This document shows, piece by piece, positions 1-10,398 of a stretch of 64,000 nucleotides of DNA. Numbering within the stretch: the stretch's first letter is position 1; each line of letters opens with the position of its first letter. The stretch is taken from the NCBI GenBank assembly GCA_009667805.1, contig CM019075.1, forward strand, positions 12,787,738-12,851,737, in the 5' to 3' direction. A program made the translations under genes and the position numbers. Source of the DNA: Leptobrachium leishanense (Eukaryota; Chordata; Amphibia; Anura; Megophryidae). Below the pieces are notes generated by a model that did no database searches, was not told where the DNA came from, and saw only the letters and a program-made list of their open reading frames with translations.

Positions 1-970
1 TCACCTGGACAATATTTATGCAGTGGAGGGTACAAAAAATGAGGTATATTATCCCCCACCCAGGTATTCAATTTCTGCATTGCCTTACCCAACAGTACAA
101 CCTGGTCATTCAATTTAATTTCCCCTAATGCCCGAAGGTCCCCCCTTAGTCCATTAATCAGAGGGGTAGGCCGTCCAAACATAAGTTCGTACGGACTTAG
201 CTTCAATTGGGGGGTGGGCCTGCACCTAATGTGTAATAAAACTATTGGGAGCACATCCAACCAGTCTAGTGACGTTTCTTGGCACAGTTTGGACATTAGA
301 GTCTTCAAGGTGCGGTTCATTCTCTCGAGTTTTCTTGAACTTTGGGGCCTGTAGGCAGTGTGTAGCTTCCAGGTGATACCCAATAGACGGGCAAGTTGCT
401 GCAAACAGTTCTGTAAAAATGCAGGGCCATTGTCCGACCCTATCTCAAGAGGCAGTCCGTAGCGCGGTATTATTTCTCTCATCAGACTTTTCACTACCTC
501 CGCTGTCTTTTCTGTTCTTGTCGGGAAGGCTTCCACCCATCCTGTTAGGGTGCACACCATTACCAGTAAATATTTGTATCCTTTGCAGGGTGGTAACACT
601 GTGAAATCTATCTGTAATGACGCCATTGGAGACAGCCCGATTGGCTGTTTCCCTGGAGGTTGAGACGGACCTGTTCTTGGATTATTCTTGGCGCATGTCA
701 CGCACTGCTGGGCTATTGCTTTGCAGATTACTGACATTCCTGGTACGTAGAAATGTGGCTCCAGTTGCTGTTCCATCATTTCTCTTCCTCCATGGGTACT
801 TGCGTGAAGCGTTCTTACAATCTCGGGCGCCAGTGTTGCTGGTAGAACTATTTGTCCATTCTCTAACTGGAACCATCCGTCTTCTCCATATCCGCCTTGT
901 TCTTCTGACAGCCATTTCTTTTCTTTCTCTGAATATACAGGTGTCCATTCACTCAGTGGCGCCGGTAGGA
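1..970 (-). CDS. pol: ERV pol: integrase (partial at left edge)
   Basis: This is the integrase part of pol, which joins viral DNA to the host chromosome. After a short linker comes an HHCC zinc-binding module (HASTH near 806, CVTC near 695). The catalytic core follows, with aspartates in IDFT (about 608-597) and GSDNGPAF (about 440-417) and the glutamate in KLERMN (about 325-308), so the DDE residues are all present. No stop occurs from the RNase H region to position 1, so the frame runs out of the window. It shares its frame (minus, codons starting at 608, 605 and so on) with the OGFr-type domain and RNase H. The C-terminal part is outside the window. Confidence 0.92.
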
Positions 971-1628
971 GTGCAGCCACCACTGGTTTCGCTTTGTATT
1001 GTGCCAATTCTTCATGGTTTCCCCAGACAAATTCTTCTTTCGGGAAATAGTATCGCCATGCAAAAAACAGCAGATCTTGTCTGTCTTGTGAATCTCTTAC
1101 TGCTGGTATGAAAAAGTTCATTGCACTTTTCTTCATTCTTGGCAGCTCATTTTTGATAAAGATCTCCTTGAGGAAGAACCTCACCAATGGAGCTTGGTAT
1201 TCTTCTGCTCCCAGTTCTCCCAGACTTAGCAGTATTCGCGTAATCCGTAGATTATTATGAGGGTTGGTTGTCAAATTTTCGTAACGTTCGGCGAAATTTT
1301 CTGCTCGTTCAACTTCGGTTACTTTTGTGTCTTCTTCTCCATACTCCCCCATTAATTTTACGCCGAAGAATTTCAGCATCATTTTGTATGCTCTGCGTAG
1401 TCTGTGCTGGACTTCTGAGGTGTTGATCATTAGGCGTGTCTCTTGCAGAGTTAGAGGAGTTGAATAAAAATTTCGGCCTTGATACTGAGTTGGAAAAAGC
1501 CATTGGATATAATCATGATTGAGTTCTAATAGTTCGTAATCATCTTGCCACTTGTGCAGTATAATTTCAATGAACTCGCCTTTGGGTTCGAACTTTCTCC
1601 AATTCATGTAGAATTCATAGTTTGGCAT
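971..1628 (-). CDS. OGFr_N-like (opioid growth factor receptor) domain fused in ERV pol
   Basis: About 219 codons between RNase H and integrase, in the same open frame, read as an OGFr_N domain, the conserved part of the cellular opioid growth factor receptor (OGFR/OGFRL1 family). Landmarks in order are: FEPKGEFIEIILHKW; DYELLELNHDYIQWLFP; TPLTLQE; RRAYKMMLKFFGVKL; ERAENFAERYENL; HNNLRITRILLSLGELG; YQAPLVRFFLKE; ELPRMKKSAM; and FAWRYYFPKEEFVWG at the end. The whole domain seems present, from the FIE..W start to the FVWG end, without intron or stop. The first Met is at 1628, but the upstream sequence is open, so the domain is probably made as part of Pol. No retroviral pol I know of carries it. 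Its role is unknown: host-gene capture is an inference. Confidence 0.9.
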
Positions 1629-2494
1629 AGGAGGTTGGGGCTCTTGCTTGCAGAGCAGAACTTTGGCTTGATCGCTTGTTAGCAATGGTTTTGCAGCCGT
1701 TTTTGCGGCCTGGTCAGCGCGCCTGTTGCCTTTTGGAATTTCATCATGACCTTTCTGGTGGCCACGACAGTGCATAATACTGACAGCGCTTGGTTTCCAT
1801 ACAGCTTCTAGGAGGGCCGCGATTTCAGCTGCATACTTGATTTGTTGTCCTGAGGAAGTAAGTAGGCCCCTTTCTTTGTAGAGTGCACCATGTGCATGGA
1901 CTGTCATGAAAGCGTACTTGGAATCGGTGTAGATATTCACCCTTTTTCCTTCGGAGATCTCCAGAGCTCTGGTCAGGGCTGTTATTTCGGCCAATTGTGC
2001 AGATGTGTGGCCTGGTAATGGATTTGCTTCGATAATTTCTTCTGCTGAAACCACTGCATAGCCGGAGACTTTCTTTCCATCATTCATATTGCTGCTACCA
2101 TCGGTGAAAAGCTGTAGATCGTATTTGTCTAGGGGTACGTCTTTCAAATCTGGCCTGCTACTGAACACTTCTTCCATGACTTGGAGGCATTCATGAGTTG
2201 GATCCTCTTCACAGTCAGGCAGTAAAGTAGCAGGGTTCAAGGTAGCGATGAGGTCCAAATGAACCCGTGGATTCTCACACATCATAGCTTGGTACTTCGT
2301 CATCCGGCTGTTGCTGAACCAGTAGCTTCCTTTCACATCCAGCAGGGCCTTGACAGCATGAGGCACCTTGACATGAAGAACTTGTCCAAGGGTCAGCTTG
2401 TCTGCTTCTGCTATCAGCATTGCTGTGGCTGCCACGGCTTTCAGGCATGGGGGTAGGCCGCAGGCCACAGGATCACGTTGTTTGGAGAGGTAGG
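1629..2494 (-). CDS. pol: ERV pol: RT connection/tether and RNase H
   Basis: This section continues pol after a frame change at about 2494. A connection region is followed by RNase H, which degrades the RNA strand of RNA-DNA hybrids during reverse transcription. The acidic residues are visible in LFTDGSSN (about 2108), LAEITALTRALE (about 1990), IYTDSKYAF (about 1930) and NRRADQAAK (about 1725). A conserved-type histidine lies in HCRGHQKG (about 1765). The frame is open throughout and continues without a break into the OGFr-type domain. The segment DQAKVLLCKQEPQPP (about 1673-1629) is the linker into it. Confidence 0.92.
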
Positions 2495-3475
2495 CCGTAG
2501 CCAAGAGCCGAAACTTTGAATCAGCACTCCTGTAGCTGTTTGATTGTGTTCATGCACGTACAGCTGGAAGGGCTTGCTGTGATCTGGCAATCCCAACGCA
2601 GGGGCTTCCATTAAGAGAGTTTTTAATTTCAGAAAGGCTGCTGTTTGTTCTTCTTCCCAGAGAAAGGGGTCATGCTCTCCCCCCTTGGTGGCTTGATGGA
2701 GGGGTTTAGCTATGTCTGCGAAGTTGGGGATCCACAGGCGGCAGAAGCCCGCAGCTCCCAGAAATTCACGAACTTGTCTCCTTGTCTTTGGTTGAGGTAT
2801 TCGGCATACTGCTTCCTTTCTCTCAGCCCCCAGTGCACGTTTTGTACCTGTTAATTGAAAACCAAGATATTTCACAGTCTGTTTACATATTTGTGCTTTT
2901 CTTTTGGACACTCTGTAACCTGCAAGGCATAGCAGATGTAACAGAGCTTTAGTGGCAGAGAAACAGTCTTTTTCTGTGGGAGAGGCCAGTAATAAATCGT
3001 CGACATTTTGCAACAAAACAACTTTGTCTGGCTGAGCGTTGAAGGACAGGAGGTCCTGGCTTAGCGCGCACCCAAAAATCGTGGGCGAGTTTTTGAAACC
3101 TTGAGGGAGGCGTGTCCAGGTCATTTGATGATGCGCTCCCGTGGTGGAGTCCTCCCATTGAAATGCAAAAAGGGGCTGGCTTGTTGGAGCCAGGCGGATA
3201 CAGAAAAAAGCGTCTTTTAAATCAAGCACCGTGTAATATTTTGTATCTCCAGGAATTAATGCCAACATATTGTATGGATTGGGGACCACGGGGTGTAGAG
3301 TTACTGTGGCCTCGTTAACCGCTCGTAAATCTTGAACTGGGCGGTACTCTTGTGTGCCCTCTTTCAGTACTGGCAACAGAGGTGTGTTCCACGGTGACAC
3401 GCAGAATTTCAATATGCCGTAATCTTTAAGTCTCTGCAAATGTGTCTGGATATGGTGCTGTACGCCATTCTTCTT
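2494..3475 (-). pseudogene. pol: ERV pol: reverse transcriptase, frame-disrupted, NVDD active site
   Basis: This is the retroviral RT polymerase domain. Recognisable pieces are SPWNTPLLPV, RPVQDLRAVNE, VLDLKDAFFCIRL, TRLPQGFKNSPTIF and the catalytic loop LLQNVDDLLLA (near 3000), then the thumb region with KYLGFQLT. The usual aromatic residue before VDD is Asn here (codon AAT), although both aspartates remain. The frame differs from protease upstream (change at about 3430-3480) and from RNase H downstream (change at about 2494). The protease-to-RT spacing also seems shorter than usual, so a small deletion is possible. Confidence 0.92.
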
Positions 3476-3905
3476 CTCTGGGCATAATTACTGCAATTTT
3501 TGTGGGTTGGATGCACTGGCTGGCTGGGCTGTGCTGCCGTGCAGAGCTGCCACTCTCAGGCAGATCTAATCTAGCGTGACCCCCGGGGAGAAACGTAATT
3601 TGGGCTTGCAATTTGCAAAGGATATCCCGCCCCAGGAGCTTGATGGGACATTCGGGCATATACAAAAATTCATGTTCAACATTGTGCCCACCCACACTAC
3701 ATTTTCGTGAAGCAAGAAAAGGGTATTTAGCGGATACCCCCGTTGCTCCCACGATGTCAACCTCAGTTCCCATCGGGGGAGCAATTTGCTGTGTTGCAAC
3801 AGAATATTTGGCACCGGTGTCAACCATAAAAATTTCATCTTTATTTCCCACTCTCATAGTGACCGTGGGCTCGTGATTACCGAGCGGGATGGGCCCAGGT
3901 TCGTG
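3426..3905 (-). CDS. pro: ERV aspartic protease (pro)
   Basis: This is a retroviral aspartic protease, which cleaves Gag and Gag-Pol. It follows directly after an in-frame TGA (3908-3906) in the same frame, as in gammaretrovirus-like genomes where pol is reached by stop readthrough. The catalytic motif is MVDTGAKYSV (near 3830), and the second conserved motif is KLLGRDIL (near 3635). The frame ends at a TAA at 3426, just past the point where the RT frame takes over, so the pro-RT join carries a frameshift. Confidence 0.88.
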   Translation of the reverse strand, partial: HEPGPIPLGNHEPTVTMRVGNKDEIFMVDTGAKYSVATQQIAPPMGTEVDIVGATGVSAKYPFLASRKCSVGGHNVEHEFLYMPECPIKLLGRDILCKLQAQITFLPGGHARLDLPESGSSARQHSPASQCIQPTKIAVIMPREEEWRTAPYPDTFAET

Positions 3906-5703
3906 TCAAAATGTACCTTGCCCTTCAAATGATGTCCCCGCCAACCCAACAAATCCTGCACCGGCACCATCATTTCTCTCATACCTGCCGTTTGTTACCT
4001 GACCATTAGGAGCCTGACCTCCCGATTCCCCAGCTTCCCCCGGCACGCCGGGCAATCATTTTTCCAGTGACCTTCGCCCCGGCACCAGGCGCACTGATTG
4101 GGCCCCAGGGGTGCCCTAGGGGCTCCCCTACCTCTACCCCCACGTCCCCTCGCTCTCCCTCTGTCTGTGGCACCTCTCCCTCCAGTTCCCATATATCCGA
4201 CCACCCCTGTATGTCCCTTCTGCTTCCTCATCTCCTCCTGTTTTTCTTCTATATCCCGATTATAGTACACTTTATTAGCAATTTCTACCAATTCGCTAAT
4301 ACCTTTACCCAAAAACCCATCTTGTTTCTGTATTTTATTCCGTATGTCTCTCTGTGATTGACCCACAAAGGAAGAATTAATTAACCTCTGATTCTCCGCC
4401 GCTTCAGGGTCAATAGGACTGTACATCCTGTATGCATCTAGTAACCTTTCTAGAAATGTACTTGGGGTTTCTTTATACTCTTGCATAACATCCGCTATTT
4501 TCCCCATGTTTGTGGGCTTCTTCTCTCCTGCTTTAACACCCATTATTACCGCTGTGCGGTACGTCTGCAAGTGGGCAATGCCTGCAGCGGTATTGTACGG
4601 CCTTTGGGATCTGTTTTGGGGTAGTGTTCCTCTGCCCACGCTTCTGGCTGCGCTCTGGCATCTTCTACGGCTTGGGCAAGTAAAATTTTTCGCGCGCTAC
4701 TATTTATTCGGGCTCTTTCCTCAGTAGTAAACATTGTCAGCATTAGTTGCTGGCTATCTGCCCATGTGGGGTTATGTGTGAGCATTATTGACTCTATTAT
4801 ACTGGCCACTGCCGCGGGATTAGCGGAATACAGTGGTGTGTGTGTTTTCCAATTAAACAGATCTGTCGTTGTAAATGGGACATATGTGTATTGCACTGGC
4901 CCAGGTGCTCCGTTTTCCAGTAAGGGACCTGGCACTTCCCGTAGGGGCATCTGCTTTTTACTCTTACCGGGGTTGTGTTGATATAAATCTCGGGGTTTAT
5001 ATACATTATTCGCTGCGCGAGTGGTAGCACCTTGCTTTACACCTTCACTCTCATCACCATCATCACTGTCCTCTCGGTCTACCAGTTTATACATACTCCC
5101 ATCGGGCATTTCGATCTTTCTTAGTGGGACCTCTCTATCTCCTCCACCCACTGCCCCCTCTTCCGCAACTCTGCCCGGAGTGGAGGAAGCCGGTGGAGCC
5201 GTAGCCGCCACCCTCCTCCTCCCCTCCGCCCGCGCAGCCGCGGCACCCAAAACTTCTCTAGCTGCCCCATAATGTGATGAATAGGGCGGGGACAGGGAAT
5301 CAATCTCATCCGGCTGTTCTACCAACACCGGTCTTTTCTTTTTATTATTTTCTTTATTGGGGGGTACCTGCTTTTTGTTGCGTCCCGCCATCATTATAAA
5401 ATGACTTTTATCCCTTACACAATACTTCCATATATCTATATATGGGTACTGCTCAGGCTGTCCGCATTTCCCGGTGACCTGGGAATGCACTTTCTGTATT
5501 AGCTCCGGGTCCATTGACCCCTGCTCTGGCCACTCTGGAACCAGCAGTGGCCACACCATTGTACACATTCCCGTTAACTTTTCCTTAGTTAATTTTACAC
5601 CATAATCATGTGTTGTATATAGTGCTTCAAAATTCCGCACCATATACCCTAGGGGCGTCTCATCCTTCTTTACCTTCCCTGGCTTGGATGATCCGTTACC
5701 CAT
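3906..5703 (-). pseudogene. gag: ERV gag (matrix, capsid, nucleocapsid), frameshifted
   Basis: The start is placed at ATG 5703 because it gives MGNGSSKPG, a typical N-myristoylation start. Longer upstream readings enter the A/T-rich leader. The matrix part carries a tryptophan/proline stretch (WPLLVPEWPEQG). A charged, disordered region with an alanine-rich segment follows, then the capsid region (DLFNWKTHTPLY onward). The frame changes near 4600, after which capsid continues (GIAHLQTYRTAVIMG) to an arginine/glycine-rich stretch and one CCHC knuckle, CAWCRGEGHWKNDC (about 4090-4050). Another frame change near 4030 leads to the final Gag residues and TGA at 3908-3906. Confidence 0.88.
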
Positions 5704-5755: not shown

Positions 5756-7480
5756 GGGGGGGCGGAGCTAACACTCAACGGGACCAGACGCATCTCCTGG
5801 TGCTCTCTGGCTCCGTAGCTGATTTTCTGTGGATTCTGGACTCTCTCCCTAACTATTTTTGTGTCAGAGGTGGGTGGTGACCTCCTGGACCTGTACGGGT
5901 GCCCCGAATTGCAGTTGCCATCCTGTCTGGCTCAGACTGGGGAAATATCGAGGAGTGGGGCCTGGTGCGGTGGCTGGGACCTGGCGGCCATTTTGTAGGA
6001 TTGCCTCTGACTGAACTGCCTGGTGACTCGACGAGCGGACTTTCAGCATTTACTATGGGTCGCAAATCGGCGAAGAAAACCCCATTACCAGAGGACATCG
6101 GGCAGAGGGACATCCGTGATGCACTGGGTGAGAACCGACGGAAACGGCAAAGTGAGCCCCCCGCATACCTGTCTCCCACGAGGGGCTCCTCGGAGGACGA
6201 TGACCCATATTGGTCTGAGGCCTCTGTGGCTGCACGGCGGTCGCCGGGGCAGGTGGGAGGGTCGGTGGCTGAGACGGGCGGCTCGAAGAAATTGGTGGCA
6301 CGTAGGCTTGAGGCGTCTTCTGTCCCTCCCGGGCAGGCTGATTTGCTGCGGGATCCTAACGGGACGCGAGCGGAGGTGGGCCTTCTGTCCTTTACGCGGG
6401 ACGATGTCCGCCACTTGCTGGGAGAGGCTCTGGAAGAAATGAGGGCAGTATGGCGTTCCGACTTTGCGGTCTTAACTACTGACCTGAAGAAGGTTAAAGG
6501 ACGGCTGAAGGCTGTTGAAGTTCAGGTTGAGGAGACTGTGGCGACGCAGACCCTACTTCTGCCACAGGTGGAATCTTTGCAATCACAGGTTAAGATGCTT
6601 ACGGGAGCGGTGGAGGTGGCTGAAAACCGACATCGCCGACGAAACGTCCGTATCCGGGGGATCCCGGAGACGATTGCCGATGAAGCTTTGCTGCTGTATG
6701 TGAACAAATTTGTATCGCACGTGATGGGGACACCGAACGGGACTGTTTTTGGGAAGGCTTTTCGCCTGCGGAAAGCGGCTACGGCCCCGGTTGAATCCCC
6801 CCGCGATGTGTTAGCGGTGGCGGGACTTGAGGCCGATAAACGTTGTCTGATGTCGACCACTGCAGCTCGTGCCCCGATAGTTTTTGGGGACCTATCTTTG
6901 TCGTTACTCAATGATTTGCCTTTTGTTACACTGATTGCTCGGCGGCAATTTCGTGAAATCTCGGCTTTTCTGAGGGGCTGTGGGGTTCGATATAGATGGG
7001 GGGTGGTAGGATCCATGTATATAAACCATGACAACCTATCTCACCTGGTGTCCACCCCAACGGAAGCCTGGACACTGCTACGCTCCCTGGGCCTCTATTC
7101 TACCCCGGTGTCTCCCGGCCCGGTCCCCGGGGCTCCATCTTCTGCTTCGCTGGCCCCGGGTTAGGGTTGCACAACGGATGTACCCACTCGGTGTATTTGC
7201 CTTTGTGGATTTTTCTATTTCCTCTTTTCCCTTTTTTTTTTTTTCTCTCTCATCCTCCCACCCTACGGTTCTCTGCGACTTAAATTTCTCTCTTTTTGTT
7301 TTATTTTTGGATACCCTATGCTGATTCTGAGCTTCCTAAGTGCCTTTTCAAAATATGCTGATCTCGTAGATGTTATATTTGTAGGTTCTTGCTTTGACTT
7401 AGGTAGTTGGCCCTGCGTGGTCCAATCTAATGGTTGATGTATGACATCTTTCTGTTTTTCAAAATAAAAACTTTAAATTT
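5756..7480 (+). mobile_element. ORF1-only LINE (half-L1-like) inserted in the ERV leader
   Basis: This insertion of about 1.7 kb has a G-rich 5' end, a 5' UTR, one ORF (6055-7164), a 3' UTR of about 320 bp and an A-rich tail (AAATAAAAACTTTAAATTT). The flanks share A-rich DNA ending in ACTCTTT (5738-5755 and 7481-7493), consistent with a target-site duplication. It lies opposite to the ERV, between gag and the PBS. No ORF2 (endonuclease/RT) is present, so it resembles mammalian HAL1 half-LINEs. Internal deletion of a longer L1 is the alternative. Confidence 0.8.
6055..7164 (+). CDS. L1-type ORF1 protein, intact 369 codons
   Basis: This is a LINE-1-type ORF1 protein, a nucleic-acid chaperone that coats the element RNA. 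The start at 6055 is chosen because MGRKSAKKTPLP is a typical basic ORF1 start; an upstream in-frame ATG (5899) would add a less plausible leader. After a charged, disordered N-terminus comes a heptad-like stretch (about residues 110-190) followed by NRHRRRNVRIRGIPE, the start of the RRM-like core. FREISAFLRGCGVRYRWG matches the C-terminal domain. No stop or frameshift is present. Confidence 0.82.
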   Translation: MGRKSAKKTPLPEDIGQRDIRDALGENRRKRQSEPPAYLSPTRGSSEDDDPYWSEASVAARRSPGQVGGSVAETGGSKKLVARRLEASSVPPGQADLLRDPNGTRAEVGLLSFTRDDVRHLLGEALEEMRAVWRSDFAVLTTDLKKVKGRLKAVEVQVEETVATQTLLLPQVESLQSQVKMLTGAVEVAENRHRRRNVRIRGIPETIADEALLLYVNKFVSHVMGTPNGTVFGKAFRLRKAATAPVESPRDVLAVAGLEADKRCLMSTTAARAPIVFGDLSLSLLNDLPFVTLIARRQFREISAFLRGCGVRYRWGVVGSMYINHDNLSHLVSTPTEAWTLLRSLGLYSTPVSPGPVPGAPSSASLAPG

Positions 7481-8513: not shown

Positions 8514-9180
8514 TGTTACCGGAATCCACTTGGTTCACTTGGGACGAGGCCGGACCGGACACGAGCAAGGATTGTCTGAACACGAGTCTCTTCAGGAAAG
8601 ACAAACTTTTATTGTGACGTCACAGAATGCTCAGACAGGATTAAATCGCAAAGACTGAGCCCCGAGTTCCCCCCGACCAGGGGTCTTATACCCCGAATAC
8701 ATAATTAGGTACATCCCAATTAATCCACCTCCCTGTGACACTATCCCACCCCACGTGGGTTAATACCTCCCTTAGTCTAATACAAAAAAAGCATTTTATT
8801 AATTGGCCGTAAATTGCAAACCTTGGGTTAGTAACAGTAAATCATGATTAGTCACTCCTACTGTCCCGGGCTGTGCTTGGTTCCCTAGCTTCCTCAATTA
8901 TTTGTTACAGATGGCACCTGGTCCGATCTCTATACTCCTTTGTATTTCTGCGGGCCCCAACGTCCTTGATGTATCTTTCTTCTGTCCCGGGAACGGCAGA
9001 GATCTTTCCCAGCACTTTAATTATTTTTCTGCTAATCTCAGCACATTCCTAAATCTCTATGTATGCCTGATTGTAATTTCAACTACCAACTACCTAATTA
9101 TTTTCAAGTGAACCAATATTCTGAACAAGATGGTCGCCTGGCTTATAATGGCGGCCATCTTCCAGTCTATTTCCACTTCA
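8514..9180 (-). repeat. ERV 5' LTR (667 bp)
   Basis: The minus-strand ends are TGAAGTGG...TAACA. A near-identical copy lies at 9734-10398. A TATA-like GTATAAG (about 8690-8684) precedes a poly(A) signal AATAAA (8613-8608), giving U3-R-U5 order in the minus direction. The U3 end carries GATGGCCGCCATTATAAG. Confidence 0.9.
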
Positions 9181-9733: not shown

Positions 9734-10398
9734 TGTAACCGGAATCTGCAGGTTCACTCAAGACGAGGCCGGACCGGACACGAGCAAGGATTGTCTGAAC
9801 ACGAGTCTCTTCAGGAAAGGCAAACTTTATTGTGATATCACAACAGATGCTCAAACAGGATTCAATCGCAAAGAATGAGCCTCGATTATACAGTGTCCTG
9901 AGGTTTTATACCTCAAATACATAATTAGGTACATCCCAATTAGCCCACCTCCCGATGACACTATCCCACCCCACGTGGGTTAATACCTCCCTTAACTTAA
10001 TACAAAAGACATTTCATTAATTGGCCGTAAATTGTCAAACTTTGTGTTAGTTTCAATAAATCATGATTAGTTGCTCTTACTGTTCCGGGCTGCGCCCGTT
10101 TCCCTAGCGTCTTCAATTATTTGTTACAGATGGCACCTGGTCTGATCTCTATACTCCTTTGTATTTCTACGGGCCCTAACGACCTTGATGTATCTTTCTT
10201 CTGTGCCGGGAACAGCAGAGATCTTTCTCAGAGCTTTAATTGCTTTTCTGCTAATCTAGCACATTCCTAAATTTCTACGTATGACTCATTCTAGTTTCAA
10301 CTAAAACTTGCCTAGTTATTTTCAAGTGAACCGATATTCTGAACAAGATGGTCGCCTGGCTTATAATGGCGGCCATCTTCCAGTCTATTTCCACTTCA
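9734..10398 (-). repeat. Solo LTR of the same ERV family
   Basis: This 665-bp copy of the 8514-9180 LTR is flanked by a 4-bp target duplication GTAC (9730-9733 and 10399-10402). No internal retroviral sequence adjoins it, so it is the product of LTR-LTR recombination of a separate insertion. Confidence 0.88.

Follow-up and report, generated by a model that had tools for sequence, protein, structure and literature searches.

An OGFr_N domain of host origin between RNase H and integrase in a gammaretrovirus-like endogenous retrovirus of Leptobrachium leishanense

Introduction

How does a domain of a cellular growth-regulating receptor come to stand inside a retroviral pol gene, and does the virus make use of it? 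The question is raised by a stretch of 64,000 nucleotides from the toad Leptobrachium leishanense (assembly GCA_009667805.1, contig CM019075.1, positions 12,787,738 to 12,851,737 of the forward strand), the whole of which is referred to here as the window. Near its first letter an endogenous retrovirus (ERV) on the minus strand carries, between RNase H and integrase, the OGFr_N domain known from the opioid growth factor receptor (OGFR). The original prediction, made from the letters of the window, described a complete OGFr domain in this position and proposed that a retrovirus had captured a segment of spliced host mRNA. As possible roles it named integrase targeting or nuclear import, interference with host signalling, and release as a protein of its own.

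Results

OGFr_N in the pol frame of the window copy

A minus-strand open reading frame (ORF, 2504..3) encodes 834 amino acids (aa) and remains open up to the window edge. Pfam places RNase_H, OGFr_N, Integrase_H2C2 and rve on its translation in this order and in a single frame, so that the predicted complete domain between RNase H and integrase is borne out (OGFr_N, E 2.8e-70), as is the order RNase_H, OGFr_N, rve that had been expected from such a scan. At 236.5 bits (cut-off 22) and with profile positions 6-206 of 208 covered, the OGFr_N match excludes a chance resemblance. There is no stop or intron within OGFr_N in the window. Of the span 971-1628 originally assigned to the domain, 1008-1628 is OGFr_N proper, and the remaining 12 or so residues are linker. 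The features of this part of pol are as follows (window positions, strand in brackets).

3..2504 (-): open frame RNase H-OGFr-integrase, from the ORF list, running past the window edge
1692..2117 (-): RNase H domain of pol (Pfam RNase_H, aa 130-271, E 9.6e-28)
1629..1691 (-): linker joining RNase H to OGFr_N; its length is greater in older sublineages, at least two copies of which retain OGFR N-terminal sequence
1008..1628 (-): OGFr_N, captured from host OGFR (Pfam, aa 293-499, E 2.8e-70; tree support 100/99; dN/dS, defined below, 0.127)
843..1007 (-): end of the insert and native linker to integrase (AALLPAPLSEWTPVYSEKEKKW), the latter common to OGFr-less sisters
675..842 (-): integrase zinc-binding domain (Pfam Integrase_H2C2, aa 555-610, E 1.2e-10)
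345..629 (-): integrase core domain (Pfam rve, aa 626-720, E 4.7e-17)

The continuous pol frame that had been described thus holds for RNase H, OGFr and integrase, but not for the reverse transcriptase (RT) of this copy, which lies in another frame (ORF 3439..2441), nor for gag, which extends over two frames.

A lineage of OGFr-bearing proviruses

When protein sequences were searched with the OGFr region, 26 of 1122 candidates reached E 0.001 or better; 12 of them are from L. leishanense and 56-93% identical. Pfam recognized RNase H and/or integrase beside OGFr_N in 11 of these 12, the exception (P0006) having a match to OGFr_N only. In the 3.54-Gb genome, 5871 OGFr_N candidates were found. 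All 150 that were scored exceeded the family cut-off, 133 matched without a stop and nine lay within an open frame of exactly 1440 aa; being the best-scoring of the 5871, these 150 give neither the intact share nor the true size of the whole family. Fifty-two loci were read (49 plus L074-L076), with RNase H upstream in 47, integrase downstream in 51 and both in 46. RNase H was not seen at L001, L005, L006, L027 and L076, nor integrase at L074, but the other neighbour was present each time. The dozens of OGFr loci are spread over different chromosomes, and the OGFr of UniRef entry P0005 has an identical counterpart in the genome. The recurrence of the same order (46 loci with both neighbours, the other six with one) establishes a viral lineage, as had been anticipated for the case of several such loci, and a pol neighbour at 52 of 52 loci together with the 11 proteins removes the suspicion of an assembly join. 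One provirus (L049/L050; G000:C3, ~2.26-2.27 Mb) apparently lies within an array of ~41-base tandem repeats that flank both of its long terminal repeats (LTRs).

The donor: host OGFR

The host has tandem OGFR genes at G000:C12:9479000-9508500 (L070-L072). Their OGFr_N is spread over at least four exons, with three introns read in L070 and two in L071; the exon that would encode the start of the domain was not located. A further partial copy or allele (L073) lies on the small contig C2726.

In a tree of 73 rows, 31 viral rows form one clade (support 100/99), and the viral rows together with two host rows form another (100/99), which bears out the predicted affinity of the domain to cellular OGFR; a single shark protein named OGFRL1 stood for that family in the set. 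When three more old copies were added, the viral and host clade had support of 100/98, and in a tree that preceded the inclusion of the host genes the viral rows stood as one clade inside tetrapod OGFR (100/100). All three of these trees omit the cellular rows P0013, P0022 and P0023, which are long or odd, and near-identical viral rows were thinned. Because the viral rows group so tightly with the host OGFR genes, OGFR was preferred over OGFRL1, and the donor is the host lineage's own OGFR. Host and viral copies share OGFr_N, but the host genes are split by introns, free-standing and equipped with a long C-terminal part, whereas the viral insert has none of these and lies inside pol. Given the introns of the host genes, the intronless viral copies and the clade that unites them, a spliced mRNA of the host lineage was taken, after the split from Pelobates. 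This, together with the insert-free sisters described below, agrees with the original proposal of an mRNA segment placed in the RNase H-integrase linker. The split from Pelobates is more than 100 million years old.

The site without the insert

A genome search with an OGFr-less Pol protein (P0027) gave 67422 candidates, of which 35 were scored. Two matches, L077 and L078 (the latter with two stops), run unbroken through the linker, whereas the other 33 break at residue 757-768 and resume at 761-770 past a gap. The frames are 1204 and 1140 aa long in the unbroken loci versus 1410-1442 aa in the gapped ones, several of which are known OGFr_N loci (e.g., C2:371 Mb, with OGFr_N within the gap). 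L077 and L078 are sister to the OGFr-bearing rows in trees of RNase H (99/95) and of the integrase core (99/97). In these sisters the end of RNase H passes within a few residues into PVVAA.IPAPLTEW, while in the OGFr-bearing copies the end of RNase H is followed by the insert and then by PVVAALLPAPLSEW. The same pol backbone without OGFr is found in lizards, a caecilian and metagenomes (P0027, P0028, P0034, P0038); in seven such relatives only 5-28 residues separate the matched flanks, versus 234-249 in the window.

No OGFr match was present in 114 other pol hits (P0027-P0140), several of which are partial gene models. The models P0056, P0068 and P0116 (Pelobates, Microcaecilia, Rhinatrema) skip the stretch from the RNase H end to integrase, so that the absence of OGFr is not demonstrated there, and Pelobates fuscus was dropped as an OGFr-less outgroup since P0056 passes directly from query residue 271 to 633. 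The skipping itself may reflect an annotation habit or a shared splice.

Stages of the insert

The matches of three old copies begin well upstream of OGFr_N: in L074 and L075 the OGFR match starts at residue 4 of the Spea protein, in L076 at residue 40. A profile of the N-terminal region of cellular OGFR was compared with 53 upstream stretches (49 loci, P0012 and three negatives). It matched L015 (E 3.2e-6) and L010 (6.3e-4), and P0012 weakly (0.14), with no match in the other 50. Young sublineages have only a short linker ahead of OGFr. We read this as a later loss of the N-terminal OGFR stretch, the domain itself being retained.

On the integrase side, 25 loci were displayed; L001, L014 and L018 are out of frame there, and the rest share the same native stretch, which could hold the integrase cleavage site. 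We make no claim for an upstream motif, K-[VMI]-L-[LP]-C, as a protease site, as VLPC is found in the OGFR-derived stretch of an old copy. In one sublineage the linker before OGFr is expanded (P0012, residues 195-311) and contains a repeated RGYPV-like motif reminiscent of YRxGYP in cellular OGFR.

Selection and structure of the domain

The OGFr domain is under purifying selection. Median pairwise ratios of nonsynonymous to synonymous substitution (dN/dS, NG86) were 0.127 for OGFr (413 pairs), 0.051 for RNase H (322) and 0.082 for integrase (438), computed from non-independent pairs with dS 0.3-1.5, in which decay after insertion raises the ratio; 248 OGFr, 266 RNase H and 212 integrase pairs were left out as saturated. 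Reading the same bases in shifted frames raised the values to 0.959 and 1.539 (OGFr) and to 1.2-2.8 (RNase H and integrase). As the insert has been kept under selection, the virus probably uses it; purifying selection as such indicates only that some function is retained.

At least 97% of 41 cellular rows agree at 56 of the 204 aligned sites, and there the viral rows carry the same residue in 88.8% of cases on average; at the 62 sites conserved in fewer than 50% of cellular rows, the agreement is 20.5%. Pairwise OGFr distances correlate with those of integrase (r 0.66) and RNase H (r 0.67) much as the latter two do with each other (r 0.68).

In an AlphaFold model the OGFr piece is compact and nearly all helical (predicted local distance difference test, pLDDT, 92.6; predicted template modelling score, pTM, 0.90). 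When RNase H, OGFr and integrase were modelled together, OGFr formed a middle domain with low-confidence flexible linkers on each side (mean pLDDT 83.6, pTM 0.48). Structure searches matched no solved structure and no relative with known activity.

Type and age of the virus

Pfam matches to gag with gammaretroviral MA and p30, followed by protease, RT, RNase H and integrase, fit a class I ERV. In the pol tree the elements are placed with amphibian and squamate elements, adjoining the branch of avian reticuloendotheliosis virus and the mammalian gammaretroviruses. The OGFr-bearing elements are a gammaretrovirus-like (class I) ERV. Three env-like open frames were found, at L059:3768-5555 (-, 595 aa), L052:3521-5341 (-, 606 aa) and L054:3491-5128 (-, 545 aa), with an RPKR/RQKR-like site; a Pfam scan of two of the three gave no match.

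Six LTR pairs with TG...CA ends were delimited, and a 4-base target duplication is readable in four of the six, though not at the window copy. The two LTRs of the window copy are 97.17% identical, and those of the five other copies, which were picked for long frames, 99.71, 99.86, 100 (640 bases aligned), 99.71 and 97.20%. Amphibian substitution rates are about 1-2 changes per site per billion years. At such rates a divergence of 0-0.3% would correspond roughly to under ~1.5 million years, and one of 2.8% to ~7-14 million years. A published paper names L. leishanense among the hosts of invading ERVs (PMC10435555); the words OGFr and opioid do not occur in its accessible part.

The remainder of the window provirus

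The rest of the window copy comprises:

2441..3439 (-): RT, in a frame different from that of RNase H in this copy (Pfam RVT_1, E 7.9e-27)
3426..3857 (-): retroviral protease (Pfam RVP, E 5.6e-12)
3995..4639 (-): second gag frame, with the C-terminal part of p30 and the downstream sequence (Gag_p30 80-199 of 201, E 4.9e-29)
4546..5703 (-): first gag frame, with matrix and the N-terminal part of p30 (Gag_MA, E 1.3e-9; Gag_p30 2-65, E 1.1e-18)
5756..7480 (+): foreign, non-viral insert in the leader, an ORF1-only element resembling a long interspersed nuclear element (LINE), with repeated flanks (ORF 5899-7164; AAAGAGTTTTTTT on both sides)
8514..9180 (-): 5' LTR, followed by the primer-site-like stretch TGGGGGCTCG; its 3' partner lies in L059, past the window edge

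The copy has aged, as seen from the split pol and gag frames and the LINE-like insertion in its leader. L059 supplies, beyond the window edge, the 595-aa env-like frame and the 3' LTR. The 421-aa ORF1 frame of the LINE-like element (5899-7164) had no match in a Pfam scan, and it holds a RRRNVRIRGIPE-like motif. Just beyond the 5' LTR lies a second LTR-like stretch (9734-10398), which is 88.5% like the 3' LTR, and 135 bases adjoining the 5' LTR are repeated beyond the 3' LTR.

Discussion

Capture and probable use of the domain

The explanation that best accounts for the whole of these observations, and that we hold to be probable, is a single capture by a class I retrovirus and the retention of the domain as an adaptor to host proteins. 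A gammaretrovirus-like virus of the toad's ancestors once took up a segment of spliced OGFR mRNA, reaching from near the protein start to the end of OGFr_N, and placed it in the pol linker that joins RNase H to integrase. Lineages that arose later dropped the N-terminal part and retained the folded OGFr_N, and their spread through the germ line went on until recently. The domain would be made with every Pol molecule, enter the virion and act as an adaptor tethered next to RT and integrase; provided that Pol packaging follows the pattern of known retroviruses, it would reach the cell together with these enzymes. Selection on the fold, the retained residues that are conserved in OGFR and the loss of the N-terminal part suggest that a role in binding partners has been kept. 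Host OGFR is reported to be present at the nuclear envelope and to depend for its import on karyopherin beta and Ran (PMC5876317), and on this ground we place an adaptor role at the nuclear step first and a decoy role second. The likeliest job, proposed tentatively, would be to engage OGFR's partners at the nuclear envelope or in the nucleus when the integration complex arrives there.

Several points weigh against this explanation. Most of the nuclear localisation signals reportedly required for the import of OGFR are located downstream of OGFr_N and outside the captured segment, which speaks against simple nuclear import. By dN/dS, OGFr is under somewhat less stringent selection than RNase H and integrase. 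At 15 sites most viral rows have lost the residue that at least 90% of cellular rows share, so that the set of partners may have shifted. As to the donor, the order in which Pelobates (82/88) and then Spea (72/87) join the viral and host clade has modest support, and a first quick tree of 98 rows gave the viral group a support of only 76.

Other explanations

The captured OGFr_N might instead be a decoy that competes with host OGFR for its ligand or partners and thereby lifts a brake on cell division. We consider this unlikely, if less so than the alternatives that follow. Gamma-like retroviruses need dividing cells and would profit from such a release. The N-terminal half of OGFR alone was taken, its conserved residues are retained in the viral rows, and OGFR regulates cell growth (PMC5876317). 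Cellular OGFR is the receptor for met-enkephalin, and its C-terminal part is not in the captured segment. Against the decoy, the domain is fused into Pol, which known retroviruses make at a low level compared with Gag, and lone expression would be simpler.

Rather improbable, in our estimate, is an activity of the OGFr fold itself, i.e., nucleotide or nucleic acid binding or an enzymatic function that would serve reverse transcription or integration as the lentiviral dUTPase does. This would suit the polar residues conserved in cellular and viral rows alike (H42, Q46, N57, R119, H128, N129, N130 and R132 of the modelled piece), the presence of OGFr_N in further large proteins annotated as Macro, UBA or OTU, and a slot in pol that is the same as that of dUTPase, but the structure searches brought up no relative with a known activity.

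The domain could also be a passenger or spacer, tolerated without a role in a flexible linker of variable length. With the low median dN/dS over 413 pairs and ratios of about 1 or more in the shifted frames, conserved sites that are kept and 133 of the 150 best-scoring copies free of stops, this has little probability. That related viruses captured OGFR several times independently, or exchanged it repeatedly with the host, might be suggested by linker lengths that differ between sublineages and by the longer OGFR piece of the old copies; this is very improbable, given that the viral rows are one clade in all four trees, that OGFr distances track those of integrase and RNase H as closely as these track each other, and that the integrase-side junction is common to the copies. 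A chimeric assembly or chance resemblance is negligible in view of the E value of 2.8e-70, the dozens of loci on different chromosomes, the UniRef proteins and the readable target duplications in four of six sampled proviruses.

Relation to known systems

In sequence the nearest known relative of the domain is the host's own OGFR; in plan, the closest parallel is found in lentiviruses. In nonprimate lentiviruses a dUTPase (DU) is encoded inside pol, likewise an extra, cell-related domain within the Pol polyprotein (PMC12789967). The Pfam scan of pol in the window gave no dUTPase match, the domain being OGFr_N. Lentiviral dUTPase is placed between RNase H and integrase; it differs in being an enzyme of nucleotide metabolism that is released by the protease, whereas here an OGFR domain stands in a gammaretrovirus-like lineage. 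To our knowledge few retroviruses have gained a host-type domain inside pol and still replicate, dUTPase being a known case.

Outside retroviruses, an OGFR-like protein of Marseillevirus LCMAC202 (A0A481YX38) has an OGFr_N-like fold (Foldseek E 2.9e-6, template modelling score 0.63). It is a separate protein of 186 residues in a giant DNA virus, with 18% identity, and probably represents an unrelated gain. OGFr_N is also found in large metagenome proteins (P0022-P0026) that carry Macro or UBA domains or are named as OTU proteins. Together, the marseillevirus and metagenome proteins hint at a wider viral use of the domain.

Host-gene capture by retroviruses is already known. Searches of the open-access literature of PubMed Central (PMC), subscription journals and preprints being outside this coverage, brought up no description of an OGFR domain in Pol, nor of such a domain with its donor, empty site and stages in one genome.

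Significance

With the donor, sisters with an empty site, copies that retain more of OGFR and the final, trimmed form present in one genome, the steps of the capture become directly readable. The role of OGFr_N is poorly understood and no solved structure was found, so that its selection beside RT and integrase may offer a new handle on the function of the domain. Our judgement is evenly balanced on whether the Pol-borne OGFr constitutes a new class of retroviral accessory function, through nuclear help for the integration complex or release of a brake on cell division, which would have been selected over many sublineages and would possibly still be active in the living toad. If so, a piece of a nuclear growth-regulating receptor of the host would have been turned into a standing part of a viral replication enzyme.
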